Assembly: GCA_902489515.1 (NCBI GenBank)
Contig: CABUAL010000002.1
Span: 1 to 21,686 of the forward strand
DNA from: an uncultured Collinsella sp.
GTDB taxonomy: Bacteria > Actinomycetota > Coriobacteriia > Coriobacteriales > Coriobacteriaceae
Direction of reading: 5' to 3'
DNA length: 21,686 nt
A program made the translations under genes and the position numbers. Numbering within the stretch: the stretch's first letter is position 1; every line of letters begins with the position of its first letter. Below are positions 3,131 through 12,310 of this stretch, piece after piece. Below the pieces are notes generated by a model. It searched no databases. It was not told where the DNA came from and saw nothing but the letters and a program-made list of their open reading frames with translations.

Positions 3131-3748
3131 ATGCATTGCAAACAGTGTGGAGCAGAGATTAACGACGGCGCCAAGTTCTGCGGCGTGTGCGGAACGCCTA
3201 CGGTCGCGGCTGCGGCCAGCACAGCGGGAGATGCGATTTACGTCGAGGCCCGGCCAATTGAGAGCCAGTCTGTCGAGGCTCAGTTTCAAGCGGCGGAGGA
3301 TGCAGAGGACGCTTCTTGCCTGCAAGATTCACTTCGCGAGTCCATCGGGTCCCTTGCGCGAGCGTCGGTGATTTCGTTGCTCTATGTGCTCTTTTTCAAT
3401 TACGTGCTGGGAGGTGGCTCGCTGGGGCTCGACTATATGATTCCGCTGGCGCTGCTTCTGATTGGTCCCTGGAAGGTGATTATCTCGCTGTACCGCAGCG
3501 GTGTAAGGCTTCCCTTTGTCTATGGTGGCGGCATTATCGGTATCACGTTTATGCTAATCGAGCTTGTGGTTCTCGTGGGTCTTCCTGTCGTGGTTCTGAT
3601 GCTTTTTTACTGGTTGGGCAGCGTGATTCACGGAGCGGTTCCGGTTGTTCCCGAATTAGCACCGATGACGATGGTGGCACTTTGGCCTATCGTCTCGGTT
3701 GCCAACATCATCTTCAAGGCAATCAAGCTGCACATGGCTCGCGCCTAG
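3131..3748 (+). CDS. Zinc-ribbon membrane protein
   Basis: A 205-residue protein. It starts with a zinc ribbon (C3, C6, C17, C20; CKQCGAEI...AKFCGVCG), followed by an Ala/Glu-rich linker to about residue 70. Four or so hydrophobic segments follow (about 76-94, 101-120, 132-164, 179-199), so the ribbon probably faces the cytoplasm. This architecture is common in uncharacterised gut Actinobacteria and Firmicutes proteins; no enzyme motif is visible. The start is ATG at 3131 with GAAAGGA at 3116-3122. It is divergent from 2991 and 149 bp upstream of a second ribbon-membrane gene with a near-identical ribbon, which suggests a related role. Confidence 0.8.
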   Translation: MHCKQCGAEINDGAKFCGVCGTPTVAAAASTAGDAIYVEARPIESQSVEAQFQAAEDAEDASCLQDSLRESIGSLARASVISLLYVLFFNYVLGGGSLGLDYMIPLALLLIGPWKVIISLYRSGVRLPFVYGGGIIGITFMLIELVVLVGLPVVVLMLFYWLGSVIHGAVPVVPELAPMTMVALWPIVSVANIIFKAIKLHMARA

Positions 3749-3839
3749 CAAGTAGCCCGTCGCATGCCTTCCGCGTGGGGTCAGGCGAATTTGAAAGGTG
3801 AAGGAAAAGGTTTACAGTCGAGCAAATTGTTCCTGGGCC

Positions 3840-3868
3840 TTTACTGTTTGCAGGCTGCGGGCTATCGT
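3840..3868 (+). promoter_or_regulatory. Possible promoter of the 3898 gene
   Basis: TTTACT (3840-3845) and TATCGT (3863-3868) are separated by 17 bp and lie about 30 bp upstream of the start codon. The match to the sigma-70 consensus is moderate. No clear terminator was seen between this gene and 3748, so read-through from upstream is also possible. Confidence 0.3.
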
Positions 3869-3897
3869 TTCGATATGCTGAAGTTCTAGGGGGATTT

Positions 3898-5391
3898 ATG
3901 TACTGCGCAAGCTGCGGGGCAAAGATCAAAGACGGGGCGCGATTCTGTTCCGCATGCGGAAAACCGTTGGATGTGGATGATGCGCCGGCGAATGCTCAGC
4001 AGTCGCTTCCTTCAGGTACACCAAAGGCGTCTGCTGATAGAAAAGCGACAAGCGATCCTGCTGCATCTCGCATAGAGAGCGCTTCTCCGGCGCCCTCTGA
4101 TCATATGTCCTTTGCGGCCTTTATGATGCAGCGTCGGCAGATCGGCCGTTTTGCTGTGCCTACGTTTGTCACCATTCTTGCAGCAATCATCTTTACCGCT
4201 GGTGTCGCTTACGCCCTGGTCAAAGCTTACGAAGCCTTTGTGCTGCCTCAAACGCAGCAGCAGGAGCAGCCGGCTGCAGTCGAGAAGAAGTCGTCTAAAA
4301 AGAAGGTCGCGGCAACAAACAAGAAAGCACGCAGGGCTTACGAGGGCGTGGTTGCGCGTTACGAGGACTTTGCGAGCTATTGCGAGCGGAAGGGGGCTGG
4401 TGCTGCCAGCTACGACGACTGGGCCCAGGGACGCGGTGATGATTCTGGACTGGGGCAGATATTCGTTTATAACAACCAGACTGCCCCCGGCTTTTTAAGC
4501 TACTACTATGCTTTCGATGATTTGAATGGCGACGGAATTGACGAGCTGCTTGTTGGGTCTGTCGATGCGCAGAACGATATTTCGGCGATTGTGGGTGCCT
4601 ACTGCTTTGTTGATGGAGCGGCCGTTTCGGTTATGCCTTCGTCAGAGATGGTAGAAGGCTCCAGCAATATGACAAATCAGTATGACGGTTTTATTGCTCA
4701 GGGTGAGAGCCAAGTCATTACTGTCTGTAAGGACGGCATCGTTAAATTTACTTGTAGTCAGGATTGTAGCCAGGCAGATTTCTATATTTCGCTTACTGCA
4801 AAGGGTCCTGAGGTCGTAGACGCGGCGCAAATTCAAAATAAGGAATTCGATAGGCAGAATGGCGTCTACTTGGTGAGGACCGTTGAGGATGCTGGCAAAC
4901 CGCAGGAGTCGATGGTCCAGGGGCGTGAGGAAGCGTGCAAAATTCTTGACGAGCTCGCCGGGAAGTATCCGGAGGCCGACATTGAAATGCCATCCGCAAG
5001 CAGCGATATGTGGAAGGCATTCAAAGGGGCGGAGCCTTCGGAGAGCTCTTTGAAGGACGGTTCTGGCACTGCGGACGATCGATCTGGCGCATCTCAAGCA
5101 CCATCTGAAGCGGCATCCGATAGCAGCGACGATGGGGAGGCCGCTGCGCGCGGCGATGGCGTGATCGCCGACATGGATGCGTTCATTGCAAACGCCAAGC
5201 GCGAGTTGATTGTGCCAGATGACGCCTCTATTACGTTCAAGGTCGCTGATAAGCCAAACTATTGGGAGGGGGCGGCAACGTACGTTTGGTACGTCGAGTT
5301 TTATAAAGACGGAAAGGTCGTAGCGTCTGCGGAATGCGGCTCTGAAGGGTACCCATGTCGGTCGATTATGGCCTATCACGAGAGCCGGTAA
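3898..5391 (+). CDS. Zinc-ribbon, single-pass membrane protein with large C-terminal extracytoplasmic region
   Basis: A 497-residue protein. The N-terminal zinc ribbon has C3, C6, C17 and C20 (CASCGAKI...ARFCSACG). A disordered linker (about 22-80), one membrane helix (about 85-110) and a Gln/Lys-rich stretch (117-145) follow. The rest is probably outside the membrane. DLNGDGIDELLVG (208-220) is an FG-GAP/EF-hand-like loop that usually binds calcium. A Ser/Asp-rich linker (about 377-420) leads to a last small domain (about 424-497). The start is ATG at 3898 with AGGGGG 5 bases upstream. It pairs with the upstream ribbon gene by domain design. A sensor or envelope role is an inference; no catalytic motif was seen. 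Confidence 0.8.
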   Translation: MYCASCGAKIKDGARFCSACGKPLDVDDAPANAQQSLPSGTPKASADRKATSDPAASRIESASPAPSDHMSFAAFMMQRRQIGRFAVPTFVTILAAIIFTAGVAYALVKAYEAFVLPQTQQQEQPAAVEKKSSKKKVAATNKKARRAYEGVVARYEDFASYCERKGAGAASYDDWAQGRGDDSGLGQIFVYNNQTAPGFLSYYYAFDDLNGDGIDELLVGSVDAQNDISAIVGAYCFVDGAAVSVMPSSEMVEGSSNMTNQYDGFIAQGESQVITVCKDGIVKFTCSQDCSQADFYISLTAKGPEVVDAAQIQNKEFDRQNGVYLVRTVEDAGKPQESMVQGREEACKILDELAGKYPEADIEMPSASSDMWKAFKGAEPSESSLKDGSGTADDRSGASQAPSEAASDSSDDGEAAARGDGVIADMDAFIANAKRELIVPDDASITFKVADKPNYWEGAATYVWYVEFYKDGKVVASAECGSEGYPCRSIMAYHESR

Positions 5392-5466
5392 CTTTAACCG
5401 AGCCGTTTTGGCATTACAGCGCGCGCAGCTCTTATACCTTTCCCCTTGTTCCATCCGACGAGTTTA

Positions 5467-5489
5467 GTTACGGCTAAAACGGCCGTTAC
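5467..5489 (+). other. Hairpin abutting the tRNA-like locus
   Basis: GTTACGGC (5467-5474) pairs with GCCGTTAC (5482-5489) with a single T-T mismatch and a 7-base loop. It ends at the base before the tRNA-like sequence starts. It could be a processing signal or a remnant of a terminator. Confidence 0.4.
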
Positions 5490-5579
5490 GAAGAGCTGAC
5501 CGAGAGGCCGAAGGCACTCGCCCGCTAAGCGGGTATGCCCCAAAAGGGTATCTGGGGTTCGAACCCTCCCGGTTCTTCG
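5490..5579 (+). tRNA. tRNA-Ser(GCU)-like, atypical and probably degenerate
   Basis: The sequence matches the bacterial tRNA-Ser plan: acceptor 5490-5496 with 5572-5578, T8 and G9, a D-arm with GAGAGGCCGAAGG, an anticodon arm 5517-5533 with anticodon GCT at 5524-5526, a long variable arm (TGCCC/GGGTA around 5536-5550), TTCGAAC T-loop, and discriminator G5579. CCA is not encoded. Several positions are abnormal. Position 33 is C (5523) in place of the near-invariant U. The first D-stem pair is A-C. The T-stem has a mismatch and a G-U pair, and two extra bases (CG, 5570-5571) sit before the 3' acceptor strand. The anticodon arm can refold as CCCGC-TAA-GCGGG. It is likely a pseudo-tRNA or a tRNA-like RNA with another role. 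Confidence 0.6.
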
Positions 5580-5621
5580 TCAGTTGACCAAAGGTGCGAC
5601 ATTATTACCGCTCATCGGGGG

Positions 5622-5658
5622 TGGCTAAATGAGATGACTTGAGGGCTATAATTAGCCA
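5622..5658 (+). promoter_or_regulatory. Promoter region of the SPFH operon with flanking inverted repeat
   Basis: A perfect -10 hexamer TATAAT lies at 5647-5652; no good -35 is visible 16-18 bp upstream. TGGCTAA (5622-5628) and TTAGCCA (5652-5658) form a 7-bp inverted repeat that brackets the -10. Such symmetry over a promoter with a weak -35 fits control by an activator or repressor. That is inferred, not shown. Confidence 0.45.
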
Positions 5659-5665
5659 AGCTAAG

Positions 5666-5774
5666 TTGGGGACAGATTGAGGCGCACAGGCTTTCGATGC
5701 GCCTGTCGACTCGGCAGTTCGCAATTTATTAGACACGCGGAACGCGTGGTTTGGGATTAACGAAAGGAATCAGC
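5666..5774 (+). promoter_or_regulatory. Structured 5' leader of the SPFH operon
   Basis: About 110 bases between the -10 and the start codon. GGCGCA (5681-5686) can pair with TGCGCC (5699-5704), or ACAGGC with GCCTGT in an overlapping register, so two alternative hairpins are possible. A GGGGACAG core (5668-5675), as in the hairpin family elsewhere in the window, is present without its own flanking stem. The ribosome site GAAAGGAA is at 5762-5769. Confidence 0.35.
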
Positions 5775-7151
5775 ATGTCACTGTTCCATAGCGATAACGA
5801 AAAGGAAGAAAAGCACAGCGGAATTCTCGGTGCCTTTTCTGTCGACAATATCAAATGGGAGCCTGGCAACGACGAAGATGCCTCGCTTGTCTCATTCCGC
5901 TATCCCTACGAGGATTTTCCCAACGGGTCCTATCTTCAGGTTGCGCAATCGCAGATTGCCGTTTTTACCAACAATATGGGGGCGGGCAGTTCTACTGACG
6001 CTACGGGTGCCGGCGATTCTCAGGTAAGCGTGTTTGTCGGTCCGTGCAAGATCAAGCTCGACACGGGAGACAGCCGATTCGCCCCGTTTCGCAATGCCGC
6101 CCATTCGCTTACCGGCGGTAGCTCGGCGTTCCATTCCGTTGTGTACTTTATCAATACTAACTACATGAACGAGCTGCGCTGGGGCACGACCGAGCCCATC
6201 ATCGTCCAAGACCCTGAGGAAGACGTCAACATTCATGTTCGCGCCTTCGGTTTGTTTGGCGCACATATCGAGCAGAATGACTCGAGCCTGGTTCCCATTC
6301 AGGTGAGGAAGTTCCTCGTTAAGGTCGTGGGCACGCGAGATCGCTATACGCGAGAAGAACTTACTTCCTTTATGCGGGCAAAAATCCTTGAGTATGTTCC
6401 TGACCTGCTTGCCAAGGCGATTGTTGACCAGGAGGTTTCCGTTCTTAAAATTGCGACGCATCTGAGCGACTTCTCGTCTCAGATGCAGGGCAAGCTCGTT
6501 AACTATTTCGATGAGTTTGGTCTCACACTCGATAACTTCTCGTTCAACAGCATCAAGCCCTTCGAAGAGGACCTTGCCGCCATCAACGAGATGAAGATCC
6601 AGCGTAAGCGGAGCATTCTCGAGGCACAGGGTAACGCTGCCCAGATGGACATCGAGTCCGAGGCACTTGCCAGGAAGCGTGCGCGCGAAGGCTACAACTA
6701 TCAGCAGGAGCGCGGCATGGACGTAATGGAGAGTGCTGCGGGCAATGAGGGGAGTGCCGCATCGGGCCTCATGGGAGCCGGTATGGGACTCGGCATGGGC
6801 GTTGGCATGGGCGGTGCATTTGGAGCCGGCTTCTCCAACTTGGCCAACCAGACCATGGGCGCTGTTGCTCCCATGGTTGGAACGGCTTCCGCGTCCGCAG
6901 GTATGCAAAACGGTCCCGTATGTCCCAGTTGCGGAAACGTTAATCCGATGGGTGCTAAGTTCTGCCTGGAATGCGGACAAAAGTTCGAGCAGGGTGTTGC
7001 GTGTTTGGCGTGTGGGCATCTTAACCCGGTCGGTGCCAAGTTCTGCCTTGAGTGCGGGAACCGGTTGACCTCGCCAAGGTGCCCGAGCTGCGGAGCCGAG
7101 TTGCCCGAAGGGACCAAATTCTGCCCCGATTGTGGAACTAAGATCCAATAA
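5775..7151 (+). CDS. SPFH/band-7 domain protein with three C-terminal zinc ribbons
   Basis: A 458-residue protein. Residues 20-280 match the SPFH group that includes B. subtilis YdjI: an N-terminal FSVDNIKWEP segment, the core with VFVGPCKIKLDTG, and a helical part ending in FEEDLAAINEMKIQRKRSI. A charged helix (about 270-315) is followed by a Gly/Met-rich linker (331-353). Three CxxC...CxxC zinc ribbons follow (C383/386/397/400, C410/413/424/427, C436/439/450/453). SPFH proteins form oligomeric scaffolds at membranes; the ribbons probably mediate protein contacts. The start is ATG 5775 with GAAAGGAA upstream. An in-frame TTG at 5751 lacks a ribosome site. It is the first gene of the operon and 12 bp upstream of a membrane protein. 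Confidence 0.88.
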   Translation: MSLFHSDNEKEEKHSGILGAFSVDNIKWEPGNDEDASLVSFRYPYEDFPNGSYLQVAQSQIAVFTNNMGAGSSTDATGAGDSQVSVFVGPCKIKLDTGDSRFAPFRNAAHSLTGGSSAFHSVVYFINTNYMNELRWGTTEPIIVQDPEEDVNIHVRAFGLFGAHIEQNDSSLVPIQVRKFLVKVVGTRDRYTREELTSFMRAKILEYVPDLLAKAIVDQEVSVLKIATHLSDFSSQMQGKLVNYFDEFGLTLDNFSFNSIKPFEEDLAAINEMKIQRKRSILEAQGNAAQMDIESEALARKRAREGYNYQQERGMDVMESAAGNEGSAASGLMGAGMGLGMGVGMGGAFGAGFSNLANQTMGAVAPMVGTASASAGMQNGPVCPSCGNVNPMGAKFCLECGQKFEQGVACLACGHLNPVGAKFCLECGNRLTSPRCPSCGAELPEGTKFCPDCGTKIQ

Positions 7152-7163
7152 GGAGAAACAAAG

Positions 7164-7865
7164 ATGAACGGTTCTGTTAAACGTGTCATTTTAGGCGAGG
7201 CAATCGTCTTGGTGGCGTGGCTTGTAATTATGTTTGTCTGCCATAACGCGCTGATGAACCCTATCGTCTTTGCTATGTCGCTTGGCTTTGGGGTTTTGGC
7301 TTTTGCGGTGGCTTCGATTTCGGCTACCATGTCCGATAAGCAGTCCACGGTCAAAAGCACGACCGAAATCCATTATTTGCCGATTGCATTCAGCTGCGCC
7401 TTTTTTGTTGTTGCCCTTCTTGCCAATACGTACTTTGCGTTTGTGGCGTATGGGTGGGGCGGCAGCACGATCCCGGTTGTCGCAAACGTTGCTCTTCTCG
7501 TTGTGCTTGTCCTTGTGCAGATGGGTCTTGGCTCCTATGCCCGCCGGGCAGACCAAAAGGTTGCCGCCGTCGCCGCAAAGACGGTTCAAACGGCGCAGTT
7601 CGGATTGTGTGTGGGGCAGCTTCTTGCCGTAGCGGAGGACGCTCAGGTTAAAGCCGAACTCAAAGCGCTCAAGGATGACATCTCCTTTAGTTCCAACATG
7701 TCGCAGCCCCATGTTCAAGAGATCGAGCGACAGTTCTCCGCCGCGCTTGAGGCGGTCTCGAATTCCATGAGTGCCGATGAGCCGGCAGATGTTACGGTTG
7801 GCCTTGTCCATGATGCGCGCAATATCTGGAAAAAGCGCAATGCGGCGCTGACCGCTGTCAAATAA
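7164..7865 (+). CDS. Four-helix membrane protein of the SPFH operon
   Basis: A 233-residue protein with four predicted membrane helices (about 7-27, 33-54, 71-95, 102-124). A soluble helical C-terminal region (about 125-233) follows. It has no signature motif that I recognise. The start is ATG 7164 with AAGGAG upstream, 12 bp after the SPFH stop, so the two are almost certainly translated from the same mRNA. Given that the SPFH protein has no membrane helix of its own, this protein could be its membrane partner; this is an inference from adjacency. Confidence 0.8.
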   Translation: MNGSVKRVILGEAIVLVAWLVIMFVCHNALMNPIVFAMSLGFGVLAFAVASISATMSDKQSTVKSTTEIHYLPIAFSCAFFVVALLANTYFAFVAYGWGGSTIPVVANVALLVVLVLVQMGLGSYARRADQKVAAVAAKTVQTAQFGLCVGQLLAVAEDAQVKAELKALKDDISFSSNMSQPHVQEIERQFSAALEAVSNSMSADEPADVTVGLVHDARNIWKKRNAALTAVK

Positions 7866-7919
7866 GGGCTCGTGCTGCTTTTTGCCAGGGCACTTTGATG
7901 GTTGAAGTGGGGGAAGCTA

Positions 7920-8726
7920 TTGGAAATCAACGGAATAACTTGCGAGGGCTGCGGCAGCACCGATGTCGAATTTGACCCCGCAACTCGAAAGGTTCATTGC
8001 AACCAGTGCGGTCGCGAGATGTACTATTCGCGGGCGCGTCTGGGGGCCACGGGCAAAATCGCGTTTGCCAAGGACAATGCCATCAAGTTTTTTAAGGGCG
8101 GCAACTTCCCGGAGGCCCGCAAATTTGCCGCAGACGTGCTCAATATGATGCAAGACAACGCGGCGGCACAGTTTATGGTTGCGTACTGCGATGAGTTTTG
8201 CGAAGGTCTTTCGGGTTCGATGACGGTTTTCTTTAAAAGGGCCGAAGATATCCCTCTCGAATATGACGAAGTGCGTGACTTGATCGACTTGTTTGAGTCG
8301 ACGCTCTACAACATGCGTGACTTTGAGATTCAGATGGTATCGCTCGTGGTCGCCAATATGCAGAGCATGGAGGATCGGTCTCGACTTGAGAACTTTATCG
8401 ATGCTGTGTGCCCGTTCTGCATAGCACGGTATGCTTCGGAAGACTTTATGACTGCAGAGCGGGAGAGTTTCTATCAAGATATTGCCGCCAACTGCAATAT
8501 ACCCAAAACGTGTCTCGCACTACTCAAGGGCATTAGAGAGAACCCCGGGTCCCCCTATAAAACTGGTTCGTTTGCGTTACGAAGAAGGACTTCGTACTTT
8601 TTCGAACACTATGTGGAGCCAGTCGGGCGCATCGTCAATTCGATGAAGGCAAGCCAATACAAGCAGAAGTTTCTTGTGGCCTATCAGCAGGTGTCCGAGC
8701 AATACCGAAGCATGGCCTCTCAATAA
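7920..8726 (+). CDS. TFIIB-type zinc-ribbon protein with helical repeat region
   Basis: A protein of 268 residues if the TTG at 7920 is used. That start has GGGGGA about 6 bases upstream; a second in-frame TTG at 7902 lacks one. The N-terminal zinc ribbon has C8, C11, C27 and C30 (CEGCGSTDVEFD...VHCNQCGREM), the TFIIB-type spacing. The rest is mostly helical; the stretch NAIKFFKGGNFPEARKFAAD resembles a TPR-like unit. No membrane segment is seen. YdjG in the B. subtilis ydj operon also begins with a TFIIB-type ribbon, which supports a related role. It follows the membrane protein by 54 bp. Confidence 0.78.
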   Translation: MEINGITCEGCGSTDVEFDPATRKVHCNQCGREMYYSRARLGATGKIAFAKDNAIKFFKGGNFPEARKFAADVLNMMQDNAAAQFMVAYCDEFCEGLSGSMTVFFKRAEDIPLEYDEVRDLIDLFESTLYNMRDFEIQMVSLVVANMQSMEDRSRLENFIDAVCPFCIARYASEDFMTAERESFYQDIAANCNIPKTCLALLKGIRENPGSPYKTGSFALRRRTSYFFEHYVEPVGRIVNSMKASQYKQKFLVAYQQVSEQYRSMASQ

Positions 8727-8798
8727 AGCAGATGGCGGGCGCTTGCTCGCTTAAAGCTATTGGATGATCTAAACGGTACAAACTGAAAGGTGGTACAG

Positions 8799-10454
8799 AT
8801 GAGTGATTCGGGATTAGATACTGCCCTTATCGAGCGCAGGATCGCCGCTATTGGAACTAAAGTTGACCAGATGACCACGAAGGTCGATAAGGTCGAATCC
8901 CAAATGGAGGAAGTGCGGAAGGACCTTAAAAAGCTCCGAAAGGACTTTCTCGAGATGATGCTCGAGCAGCGTCGTACCGCCGCACTTGAGCAGGCGACTA
9001 CGGAGCTCGTGAGCGTCCGGCAGGAGATGGACAAGAAGTTCGGCAACTACTCGGTGGTTCGAAACACCATGGTCGGTATTCTCCAGGCAACCGATGCAGC
9101 GCTCGTGCGCAAGGCGACGATTTCGACGGTCTCCGAGGAGTTAATGATCTCTACCCCGGACTACTGGCTGGCACCTGTCCTGGTTGCCCTTGCGGCATGG
9201 ATCAACAACAACCGAGATCTTGCAGAGCGCGCAATACGCGAGGCTGTCAAACGTGACAACGAGCACACGTCGCTTGCGATGGCTCTGATCTGCAGACGTA
9301 ATAACCGCACTGCTACGTGCTACGAATGGCTAGCGCGCTACTTCTCGACGCAAAACGCCGCCCGCATCGATGCCGATGCGATGGTCTACATCGATGCCTA
9401 TATCAACGGCATCTTCGGAACCGACGAAAAGCACCTGTGCGACGACTATATGGCGGGTTGGATCGAGCAGATCAGAAATCAGAGCCCTGAGTTCGAGAAT
9501 GAGCAGTCAGAGTCATGGGCGGAGTACTTTACCGGCTACGAGGAGGATATGAGCTCGAGATATCCGGCGCTCAAGGTGGTGGTCAAGGAGTTTGACTACA
9601 TCAATAAGTATCTCGGTAAAGTCGAGGCAATCGAGAGCATCTCCAATGACTTCGCCGACCTCAGAGCTTCTGATGTTGACGAGAGGACGCTTGCCGAGCA
9701 GGTTGACAGGCATTTGATGGAGCTCGTTAACTCCGATGACTCCAAGGAGCGAAATTTGCGCCGCCAGGAGGAGTATCTTCTTGCGGTCAAGGCATTTGGC
9801 GGAGACGTGGAGCGCGCCCGAGAGCTCGTCAATCGTCGCCGCGATGAGAAGCGTCAGCAGACGATGAACATCATCGACCAGATGACACGCTCGATGCGCG
9901 ACCAGAGTGCGTCTGTGGATGTGCATAAGAAGAAGACTGCAATTCAGTTTTTGGGTTCCTATATCAACGGTGGTTTCAACCGGTATCGCAAGAGCGATAT
10001 CCCCGAATTTCCGCAGGCGATCACCCTCGACTTCGACGGATGGACAAGCAGGGCGGTTACCGGCGATGAGGGCAATGCGCTGCGCGGCGATTATGTTCGC
10101 TATGTCGGTGAAGAGAAGAAAAAGGAGCTCGCTGAGCTTGATGTCAGGGTTGCGAAGGGCAACAAGAGCTACAAGATAGCGGCCGTTGTCCTCGCTGTTT
10201 TGGGAGTAGCTTTCTTTGCGTTTGTAAACCAGGTTATTGGCATTCTGCTACTTGCGGGGGCTGGCTATTGTCTAGTAAAGACGAGCCTCTCGGGCAAGCA
10301 GCGCACTGCGGAGGCAGAAGAGATTGAGGCCAAATACTCCAAACGCATCCAGGAAGGCTGTTCCGAGATCGATCTGGCGCTTAATCAGTGGAAGAGCGCG
10401 AAGGAAGCGGCGGCCGAGCGCAGCGACCTGCTTAAGCTCGATAAGGTTGCCTAG
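8799..10454 (+). CDS. Coiled-coil protein with C-terminal membrane hairpin
   Basis: A 551-residue protein. A heptad-rich coiled coil runs over about 10-80 (KVDQMTTKVDKVESQMEEVR...). A large helical region follows, then two adjacent membrane helices (about 457-477 and 478-496) and a short helical tail. It is therefore likely anchored by its C-terminus, with the coiled coil in the cytoplasm. I do not recognise the family. The start is ATG 8799 with AAAGGTGG at 8786-8793; an in-frame GTG at 8790 overlaps that site and is unlikely. It sits 72 bp after the zinc-ribbon gene, on the same strand. It could occupy the structural slot that the coiled-coil PspA homologue (YdjF) has in the B. subtilis operon, though no PspA similarity is seen. 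Confidence 0.8.
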   Translation: MSDSGLDTALIERRIAAIGTKVDQMTTKVDKVESQMEEVRKDLKKLRKDFLEMMLEQRRTAALEQATTELVSVRQEMDKKFGNYSVVRNTMVGILQATDAALVRKATISTVSEELMISTPDYWLAPVLVALAAWINNNRDLAERAIREAVKRDNEHTSLAMALICRRNNRTATCYEWLARYFSTQNAARIDADAMVYIDAYINGIFGTDEKHLCDDYMAGWIEQIRNQSPEFENEQSESWAEYFTGYEEDMSSRYPALKVVVKEFDYINKYLGKVEAIESISNDFADLRASDVDERTLAEQVDRHLMELVNSDDSKERNLRRQEEYLLAVKAFGGDVERARELVNRRRDEKRQQTMNIIDQMTRSMRDQSASVDVHKKKTAIQFLGSYINGGFNRYRKSDIPEFPQAITLDFDGWTSRAVTGDEGNALRGDYVRYVGEEKKKELAELDVRVAKGNKSYKIAAVVLAVLGVAFFAFVNQVIGILLLAGAGYCLVKTSLSGKQRTAEAEEIEAKYSKRIQEGCSEIDLALNQWKSAKEAAAERSDLLKLDKVA

Positions 10455-10495
10455 CCGATAGGATTGACTCGATAACCATGAATGGAGTGAAATAG

Positions 10496-10687
10496 ATGAC
10501 TGATGATGTGACTGATTTCGACCATAACGATGCTGCGATGCAGGACTTCGATGCATTGAGCGAGCTCGATAGTCTGTTTGAAGAGGACGAGCGACTGAAG
10601 CAAGCTGAGAACAATGTTTTGACTCAAAATCTCTCAGGCTTTGCAAACTGCTTTCCCGATTGGGATTTGCATCCGCCGGTAGCGTAG
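10496..10687 (+). CDS. Small acidic protein ending in a FPDWDLHPP tail
   Basis: A 63-residue protein with 16 Asp/Glu against one Arg and one Lys. The acidic N-terminal half (1-32) is followed by a short amphipathic helix and the C-terminal motif FPDWDLHPPVA (53-63). A good ribosome site (GGAG, 10484-10487) precedes the ATG, and the gene sits 41 bp after the coiled-coil gene and just upstream of a terminator, so it looks like the real last gene of the operon. The tail looks like a short linear binding motif. No family is known to me. Confidence 0.6.
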   Translation: MTDDVTDFDHNDAAMQDFDALSELDSLFEEDERLKQAENNVLTQNLSGFANCFPDWDLHPPVA

Positions 10688-10971: not shown

Positions 10972-11316
10972 ATGGGTACGGCAATGGTGCAGCTCAACAC
11001 ACGAATCGATCCTATGCTCAAGGCTGGTGGCGATGCGGTCCTGACTCGCAATGGATTGGGGCCGAGTGATGCCATTCGCGCGCTTTGGGCCTATCTTGTC
11101 GAGCATCAAGCGTTGCCGGGATTTATGCTGGCGGATAAGCGTGAGCTGCCCCGCGCGAAGAGCCTTGCCGAGCAGGGGTGTGGGCTAGCTTTTTCCTCGT
11201 TGGGGCTAAGCGCTTCGGATTTTGCGCCAGCTGAATCGTCTGCGGAAGACTGGGATGCCGTATGCGATGATATGTATGACGCGATGATTGCCGACATGGA
11301 GGCGAATTGCCGATGA
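10972..11316 (+). CDS. RelB/DinJ-like ribbon-helix-helix antitoxin
   Basis: A 114-residue protein. The N-terminal MVQLNTRIDPMLK...AVLTRNGLGPSDAIRALWAYLVEHQALPGF (5 to about 51) is the beta-strand plus two helices of the RelB/DinJ family, which forms DNA-binding dimers. The C-terminal half is the expected flexible part that binds and neutralises the toxin. The start is ATG 10972 with GGAAGGAG upstream. It overlaps the toxin gene by four bases (ATGA), the usual translational coupling. Pairing with a PIN toxin rather than a RelE/YafQ toxin is notable. Confidence 0.88.
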   Translation: MGTAMVQLNTRIDPMLKAGGDAVLTRNGLGPSDAIRALWAYLVEHQALPGFMLADKRELPRAKSLAEQGCGLAFSSLGLSASDFAPAESSAEDWDAVCDDMYDAMIADMEANCR

Positions 11317-11780
11317 TCGAGGCAAAGCGCCTGCTTGTGGATACGAATGTGTGGCTTGATTATTACCTGCAAGAGGGGGCATTCGACGAAGCGAAGCACC
11401 TGGTGGAGCTTGCCGAGGCGGGAAAGATTGACCTTCTGTACGCGCCAACGACGGCAAAGGATGTGTTCTACATTTTGCCTCGGCGTCTAGCTCGGCGGAA
11501 CGCGAACGGAGTCAACGTGTCGTTTGCTCCGGCATCATGGGCCTGTATCGAGCATATGATGCAGGTGGCAACGGCTTCTCCGCTTTCGTTGGCGGAGTGC
11601 GAGATGGCACGAATGCTTGGCAAGCGTATGCCGGATCTTGAAGACAACCTCATCATCGCCTCGGGCGAGACGGCGGATGTTGACTATATGGTCACGAGTG
11701 ACCGACGCATGCTGGAGGCAATGCCTGAGGTGTGCCTGACGCCTGCCCGTGCTCTCGAGCTGATTGGAATTCTCAACTGA
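11313..11780 (+). CDS. PIN-domain ribonuclease toxin
   Basis: A 155-residue protein. The PIN fold is shown by LLVDTNVWLDYYL (D10 as first acidic residue), LEDNLIIASG (D111), and the last acidic site in YMVTSDRRML (D130). D50 in TAKDVFYIL may be the other acidic residue. PIN toxins are Mg-dependent RNases that cut tRNA or rRNA. The start is ATG 11313, overlapping the antitoxin stop, with GGAGG at 11298-11302; an in-frame TTG at 11307 is less likely. All core acids seem present, so it should be active. Confidence 0.88.
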   Translation: MIEAKRLLVDTNVWLDYYLQEGAFDEAKHLVELAEAGKIDLLYAPTTAKDVFYILPRRLARRNANGVNVSFAPASWACIEHMMQVATASPLSLAECEMARMLGKRMPDLEDNLIIASGETADVDYMVTSDRRMLEAMPEVCLTPARALELIGILN

Positions 11781-11845: not shown

Positions 11846-12310
11846 ATGGCGGATAACGAAGCGCTGTTTACGCCTGAGCTGGTGTTTTTTGATTGGGAGT
11901 GCGCGGCGCCGGATGAGGTGTTTGCGCAGCTCGAGGACGAGCTCGCCCCGCGCGGCTACATTGCGCCCGGTTGGCTCGACGCCGTCCGCACACGCGAGGG
12001 CGCTTATCCCACGGGGCTTGCCATGCCGGCGGCTAACATCGCTATCCCGCATACCGACCCGGGGTTTGTGGCTAAGCCCTATATTGCCGTGGTAAAGCCT
12101 GCCGCGCCTGTGACGTTTAACGCGATGGCGGGCATGGGCGCTCCGGTGCCGGCGCAGATCATCGTCAACCTGGGTATTTCCGAGCCGGGCGGTCAGGTCG
12201 AGGCCCTGCAGGCGCTCATGAATATCTTTATGGACGCCGACGCCGCAGCCGATGTTCTCGGCCAGACCACGCCCCAGGGCATGGTCGACGCCATCCGCCG
12301 CCACTTCTAA
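11846..12310 (+). CDS. PTS sugar transporter subunit IIA (fructose/galactitol type)
   Basis: A 154-residue stand-alone EIIA domain of the mannitol/fructose (PTS_EIIA_2) family. The phosphorylated histidine is H69 in IAIPHTDPG. It accepts phosphate from HPr and passes it to an EIIB domain. No EIIB or EIIC gene lies nearby, so it serves a transporter encoded elsewhere or has a regulatory role. The start is ATG 11846 with GGAGG at 11836-11840; an upstream in-frame ATG at 11732 lies within the toxin gene and lacks a ribosome site. GatA-like by length and motif. Confidence 0.88.
   Translation: MADNEALFTPELVFFDWECAAPDEVFAQLEDELAPRGYIAPGWLDAVRTREGAYPTGLAMPAANIAIPHTDPGFVAKPYIAVVKPAAPVTFNAMAGMGAPVPAQIIVNLGISEPGGQVEALQALMNIFMDADAAADVLGQTTPQGMVDAIRRHF

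Follow-up and report, generated by a model that had tools for sequence, protein, structure and literature searches.

Gene order and conservation of the operon

The window considered here is a stretch of 21,686 nucleotides from contig CABUAL010000002.1 of an uncultured Collinsella sp. (assembly GCA_902489515.1). A preliminary description had noted in it seven genes in a row on one strand, with six zinc ribbons and four membrane proteins, as a candidate envelope system built on an SPFH protein. Calls of open reading frames (ORFs) confirmed the seven genes and their positions on the + strand; they are designated A to G below. Five of them, C-G, are one conserved operon, which is smaller than the unit first noted and does not include A and B.

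Gene C (5775..7151) encodes a protein with an SPFH/Band_7_1 domain, a helical stretch, a Gly/Ala-rich linker and three C-terminal zinc ribbons. It is followed by gene D (7164..7865), for a protein with four transmembrane (TM) segments and a helical tail, and by gene E (7920..8726), for a protein with an N-terminal four-Cys zinc ribbon and a helical repeat of tetratricopeptide-like (TPR-like) type, without TM segment. Gene F (8799..10454) encodes a coiled coil, a TPR-like region and a C-terminal helical hairpin, the hydrophobic tip of which (10161..10289, + strand, approximately residues 455-497) is predicted to insert into the membrane, and gene G (10496..10687) encodes an acidic protein of 63 residues. 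The C-terminus of G is a conserved tail (10637..10678, + strand; GFANCFPDWDLHPP in the window, consensus GFAxCFPxWDxxPP), which had been overlooked, as had a tRNA-Ser(GCT) gene (5489-5581) between B and C. Upstream, genes A (3131-3748) and B (3898-5391) both encode ribbon-TM proteins. The total of six ribbons was correct: one each in A and B and three in C were found with Pfam, and one in E is indicated by invariant Cys residues. Hydropathy analysis yielded membrane segments in A (five), B (two, one of them strong), D (four) and F (one) and none in C and E, in agreement with the first assignment. Sequences resembling ribosome-binding sites were seen by eye 5' of all seven genes, and the gaps within C-G are short (12, 54, 72 and 41 bases), as had also been stated. 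A promoter scan was uninformative (4 found versus 5.2 expected).

Genome contigs were scanned once with an alignment of E, which yielded 39 loci; by this design, cases of E absence were not detectable. Presence was counted for those loci whose contig extends to the gene in question. F was present in 38 of 38 loci and so was G, after F; C was found in 35 of 36, L048 being the exception, and D in 35 of 38, with none in L048, L058 or L060, four of the D counts resting on position and TM segments only. The order C-D-E-F-G on a single strand was maintained in all mapped loci. Hosts were Collinsella, a Coriobacteriaceae metagenome-assembled genome (MAG), Atopobium, many Lachnospiraceae, Butyrivibrio, Oribacterium, Oscillospiraceae, Lawsonibacter, other Clostridia, Christensenella and a Spirochaetales MAG. 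Near-identical operons were present in Collinsella aerofaciens (L035, L036, L038) and Collinsella sp. (L037), so that the window is assigned to the C. aerofaciens group. Of 20 comparisons with these four copies, 19 gave ratios of nonsynonymous to synonymous substitutions (dN/dS) of 0.04-0.31; only D versus L035 was higher, with 0.63. Since one and the same order of the five genes is seen in different phyla, and in view of the dN/dS values, the arrangement of ORFs is not a chance one. Joint conservation of the SPFH gene with its four downstream neighbours, which the preliminary description had named as its own test, is confirmed by the locus counts.

The wider scope of seven genes did not hold. 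When matches of less than 80% identity and less than 60 residues (ribbon only) were discarded, A and B were seen beside three Collinsella operons only, these being the Collinsella contigs which extend far enough, and B at 91-96% identity was restricted to 4 operon-bearing genomes among 42 of the genus. A seven-gene unit was therefore rejected, A and B adjoining C-G in Collinsella alone. In L043, a different ribbon protein, with a Yip1 domain, is encoded upstream of the operon. Many genomes of the genus contain proteins which resemble B mostly in its N-terminal part. There was also no sixth shared gene: the widest clusters among flanking genes comprised 7 loci, with members in scattered places and on either strand, the four near-identical Collinsella operons having been omitted from this clustering.

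Properties of the proteins and comparison with ydjFGHI

None of the families D, E, F and G reaches a Pfam or NCBIfam cut-off, and D has no family in either collection. C belongs to SPFH/Band_7_1 (PF13421, 83.7 bits versus a gathering score of 24, E 1.8e-23) and contains three stretches matching Zn_Ribbon_1. The start of E is a TTG at 7920, which coincides with the first Met of most relatives; its ribbon scores below the Pfam cut-off (Zn_Ribbon_TF, 20.8 bits versus 29), but E was counted as a ribbon protein because an alignment of 44 sequences shows the four Cys to be invariant. Comparison by sequence with solved structures yielded, for C, matches to the ribbons only (ribosomal L40e and a single "putative regulatory protein"); for E, ribosomal eS27 over the ribbon only; and for F, coiled coils only.

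The structural model of E (predicted local distance difference test, pLDDT, 90) shows a ribbon and then helices. Many of the structures matched by it are TPR proteins, with about 70 residues aligned at 2.1-2.6 Å, which is within the chance range for helical proteins. The model of F (pLDDT 84) contains a coiled coil at residues 8-96, a TPR-like region at approximately 100-245 and two helices (425-475 and 478-540) forming the C-terminal hairpin with its hydrophobic tip; the hydropathy peak is at residues 465-483 of the longer frame. Matches of the F model to PEX5, OGT, Tom70 and APC/C span residues 74-393, again in the chance range for helical proteins. From the models, the fold classes of E and F may be described as TPR-like. 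In similarity to PspA (ESCRT-III fold), the F hairpin did not rise above unrelated hairpins. The best 18-column conservation windows were 0.950 for C, 0.906 for F, 0.858 for E and 0.618 for D (25-30 sequences); the TPR-like region of F and the tail of G are among the most conserved stretches.

A second SPFH relative of C, with about 32% identity from residue 92 on, is present in 13 of 24 genomes of the genus, so that C is taken to be an accessory paralogue there. These relatives were recorded at loci L008, L009, L011-L016 and L027-L030, and 11 of the 13 matches carry one in-frame stop.

The preliminary description had drawn a parallel to the envelope-stress operon ydjFGHI of Bacillus subtilis, in which YdjI, YdjG and YdjH are needed for PspA at the membrane (Scholz 2021, PMC8581546, excerpt) and for which the domains of the proteins have been described (Ravi 2024, PMC11237479, excerpt). 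The parallel stands for the SPFH-ribbon protein: according to these excerpts, pspA(ydjF)-ydjGHI likewise encodes an SPFH protein with a C-terminal ribbon and no TM segment of its own, together with membrane proteins and a second ribbon protein, and C is of this YdjI type. For the remainder it is weak. E has one ribbon, a helical TPR-like body and no TM segment, in contrast to two ribbons, an NTF2-like domain and a TM segment in YdjG-type proteins as given there, and the descriptions of ydj proteins in the same excerpts mention nothing that corresponds to F or G. At E ≤ 0.1, D and F did not match PF04536 (TPM, the YdjH domain) and no protein of C-G matched PF04012 (PspA), which agrees with the first impression that the genes are not plain homologues of ydjH or ydjF. 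PspA was missing from all four operon-bearing Collinsella, while 9 of 14 control genomes were positive, and it was above the cut-off in 3 of 24 other operon genomes. That C-G could be a plain variant of ydjFGHI, recruiting PspA to the membrane, is in our opinion very improbable and largely refuted by these differences, although C without membrane segment corresponds to YdjI as the excerpts describe it, membrane partners are encoded in the same operon, PspA occurs in those three genomes, and one of 110 ORFs flanking 19 operons, outside the operon itself, matched TPM_phosphatase (3.9e-45). The operon is not the ydjFGHI system; it may work like YdjI in needing membrane partners. Operons of Band-7 proteins or flotillins with CesT/Tir-PspA or YqiJ/YuaF-like proteins also combine an SPFH protein with membrane partners (excerpt of PMC11237479); C-G differs from those by a PF13421 protein with ribbons and by containing neither AAA nor PspA.

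The tail of G and a second type of operon with F

The tail GFAxCFPxWDxxPP was found in 38 of 38 readable loci and in the window, counted as loci meeting a regular expression which fixed these ten letters; the mean conservation over its 14 columns is 0.949 (35 sequences). From the 35 non-Collinsella loci, 24 were submitted to a search with a loose DNA pattern for the tail, which matched once per genome in 23 of the 24 operon genomes and not in G082, where the tail has P-T-W. Within the genus, there was one match in each of the 4 operon genomes and none in the other 38 of 42, and a related protein pattern was found in 0 of 3,852 frames of 19 control regions. With a single match per operon genome, a sorting tag shared with other proteins was rejected.

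A profile of F matched one locus (L171) in a viral collection, and searches of genomes, plasmids and phages added further distant F genes. Nine loci (L171, L187, L206, L207, L209, L230, L231, L232 and L233) represent a sister module, in which the gene after F has a product ending in PxW(D/S/N)xxP(P/A), and next come genes for a protein of some 150-190 residues and for an AAA+ ATPase. L230 is the Streptococcus satellite phage Javan368, L231 and L232 are plasmids, and L233 is from Fusobacterium; the carriers include Komagataeibacter and Comamonas plasmids, chromosomes and one genome from the same order as the window. In 8 of the 9 loci, one end encodes a protein of some 160 residues; the contig of L207 ends inside the AAA gene, and the middle protein of L231 was assigned by position, there being no tblastn match. 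This module (U163, F, tail gene, U168, AAA) is like C-G in having a homologous F (28-36% identity) and a tail-bearing gene; it differs in that the AAA+ ATPase and two short proteins replace the SPFH, four-TM and ribbon-TPR proteins, and in its variable order. None of the nine loci matched C, D or E. In Javan368 the proteins are FIG-numbered hypothetical proteins. A phage origin of the tail was not supported: viral_contigs contained no match to the type-1 tail pattern and one to the type-2 pattern, on the L171 contig.

The tail-bearing gene of the sister module is small, except in L187 (10466-11245), where it encodes a ribbon protein. Zinc ribbons in the tail-bearing protein itself, unlike G, were seen also in L208 (11375-12241), where F and the ribbon-tail protein occur with no AAA gene in 18 kb, and on the short contig L189, where the protein encoded next after F, beyond 2471, has a ribbon and a diverged end, LPAFDPLPPVGNVVSRKK, and the contig stops before any AAA gene.

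Locus L188 is mixed. It contains an SPFH-ribbon gene 28% identical to C, a relative of D (hhalign 97.7%), a gene with a ribbon resembling that of E over 31 columns (65%), a HerA-like ATPase, the AAA gene and three F-like genes, one of which is followed by a tail-like end; it may be an ancestral or a composite form. F with the tail is the core which both operon types share. The preliminary description had supposed that ribbons may dock membrane partners onto the SPFH scaffold; the comparison points instead to F and the tail as what moves between operon types, although ribbons are present in the tail-bearing protein of L187, L208 and L189.

Distribution and possible function

The operon is patchy and, as it seems, was passed between phyla in one block. 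F was found in 4 of 43 genomes of the genus and in 13 of 396 of the class, where two weak partial matches (G353, G369) were not counted as members; the remaining 11 include one of sister type (G275), one mixed (G140) and one short contig (G418). In the class of G069, F was matched in 12 of 391 genomes, six of them weakly and not counted as members; among the six strong matches, G068 and G069 carry C-G and four carry the sister F. In a tree of C+E+F (34 sequences), the Collinsella and Coriobacteriaceae operons (support 1.0) join Lachnospiraceae L040 (0.997), followed by Spirochaetales (0.80) and Lachnospiraceae L043 (1.0), and the Atopobium operon pairs with Lachnospiraceae L065 (1.0). The distances obtained with C, with E and with F correlate (r 0.83-0.86, n=30), and together with the groupings in the tree this suggests that the block moves as a unit. 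In eight genomes of the genus without the operon, no match of at least 60 bases was found at this site to the left of window position 11846 (seven genomes) or 10881 (one genome). The tRNA-Ser copy adjoining the operon is a second, diverged copy, with 86-87% identity to the other copy in relatives; two copies were present in 4 of 4 operon genomes and one in 3 of 3 genomes without it. ARAGORN called tRNA-Ser in the window, but not in the copies of G001 and G020, which differ at several bases, the anticodon loop included.

Our preferred reading, held at somewhat less than even confidence, is that the products of C-G form one membrane-associated complex, encoded on an accessory, horizontally moved operon, and likely protect the membrane or membrane proteins. 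It is likely that these proteins associate with the membrane and belong to one complex; the formation of the complex, its ring and its physiological role are what we infer. C would assemble into an SPFH ring or cage at the cytoplasmic membrane, on its inner side, where D, by its four TM segments, and F, by its membrane hairpin, would anchor it. E and F could serve as TPR-type adaptors, and G as a small linker or regulator, whose near-invariant tail would be bound by the conserved TPR-like region of F; the tail is proposed as ligand of F because both are constant across the operon types. Bound in this manner, G might report on the assembly or close it. The likely task would be guarding of the membrane or its proteins under stress, possibly including phage attack.

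What the sequences establish is the conserved operon, its gene order, the agreement of C, E and F distances, the tail, and the association of tail and F in two operon types. Further points in favour are membrane segments in D and F and none in C, the distant F which in nine loci without C, D and E is again followed by a tail-bearing gene, and L188, which unites SPFH-ribbon, D-like, ribbon, three F-like and AAA genes. Several observations weigh on the other side. For neither E nor F did Foldseek find a PDB match at E ≤ 0.001, their TPR matches are of the kind which helical proteins produce by chance, and the profiles of E and F proved unrelated (hhalign E 0.041, probability 1.3). Since some loci are without D (L048, L058, L060) or C (L048), not every part is always needed. 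Within the C-G type, the tail and F are too conserved to reveal co-variation.

The patchiness and the block transfer could also be expected of an anti-phage module, in which the membrane complex would sense infection and act on the membrane, with G as sensor or brake and the sister module acting likewise with its ATPase. The sister module on a Streptococcus satellite phage and on Komagataeibacter and Comamonas plasmids would fit, as would the PDC-S27-like ATPase and the RelB/PIN pair in the window (see below). Against it, no clear PADLOC match to known anti-phage systems was obtained in C-G, those found being weak (PbeC, 3e-4, with the F coiled coil; Cas12u4, 0.017, with the E ribbon); the sister AAA resembles IetA (2e-34) in the AAA domain only; and 1 of 50,697 phage records matched F. 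The flanks of 19 loci showed 5 PADLOC models in 110 ORFs (E ≤ 1e-10) versus 107 in 110 control ORFs located on these contigs; these numbers are models among the matches listed, of which several can match one ORF, and the control ORFs happened to include restriction and Dpd/Druantia-like genes, so that the comparison shows only that the flanks are no richer. No signal of a defence island was obtained. Among the families listed (25 of 101), the flanking genes are mostly metabolic and regulatory, with two integrases. On balance we consider an anti-phage role possible but doubtful, and protection of membrane or proteins is rated slightly above defence as the role of C-G.

HflKC-FtsH is a known case of an SPFH assembly tied to AAA machinery and offers an analogy for the two operon types with F. 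A hub of membrane proteostasis could accordingly be envisaged, with the SPFH ring sequestering or presenting clients via E and F, the tail mimicking or regulating tails of clients, and the sister AAA acting as an unfoldase. The modelled TPR-like folds of E and F, the AAA+ ATPase as alternative partner of F and tail, and the presence of SPFH and AAA genes in L188, the only locus with both, would be in line with this; but no protease gene was seen conserved with either operon, and the tail pattern, once per operon genome, gave no client with the same tail. Full-length relatives of the sister AAA were present in 2 of 28 operon genomes (G064, G067), other hits covering the AAA domain only; dependence of C-G on an AAA protein encoded elsewhere was rejected for the same reason. 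The proteostasis hub is rated as unlikely. The genome of L208 (G494) had no AAA match at all, the AAA domain included, and its sequence may therefore be incomplete. Ycf46 is a possible name for the sister AAA, on which a literature search gave no usable result. In the excerpt of PMC13376191, "AAA" and "ATPase" are absent from the text.

Membrane protection by a C-G complex remains the reading we prefer. C-G appears to be a membrane scaffold of a kind for which a search of the open-access literature yielded no description; it adds an SPFH system mostly without PspA, in gut and rumen bacteria. More speculatively, and with considerable doubt, F and its tail partner might be the core of an unrecognised, widely mobile class of membrane modules, built with either an SPFH or a CDC48/FtsH-like AAA+ ring, in which the tail, as a switch peptide, would link F with the ring when the cell is infected or its membrane damaged. 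The tail comprises about 14 residues, hardly varies between phyla and has relatives beside the same partner in a second operon type, and it provides a directly testable handle; should it bind F, a new class of membrane modules would be defined, together with a way to find its members.

Other genes of the window include, on the - strand, an ATPase (148-1530) matching the PADLOC candidate defence model PDC-S27 (5e-55) and a protein of 452 residues (1633-2991) without Pfam or PADLOC match, in which Cys motifs of CxxC type were seen by eye. Immediately downstream of the operon, a RelB-like antitoxin and a PIN-domain protein are encoded as a pair (10972-11780, Pfam), which also falls within the sequence matched in an operon-free genome (L146).

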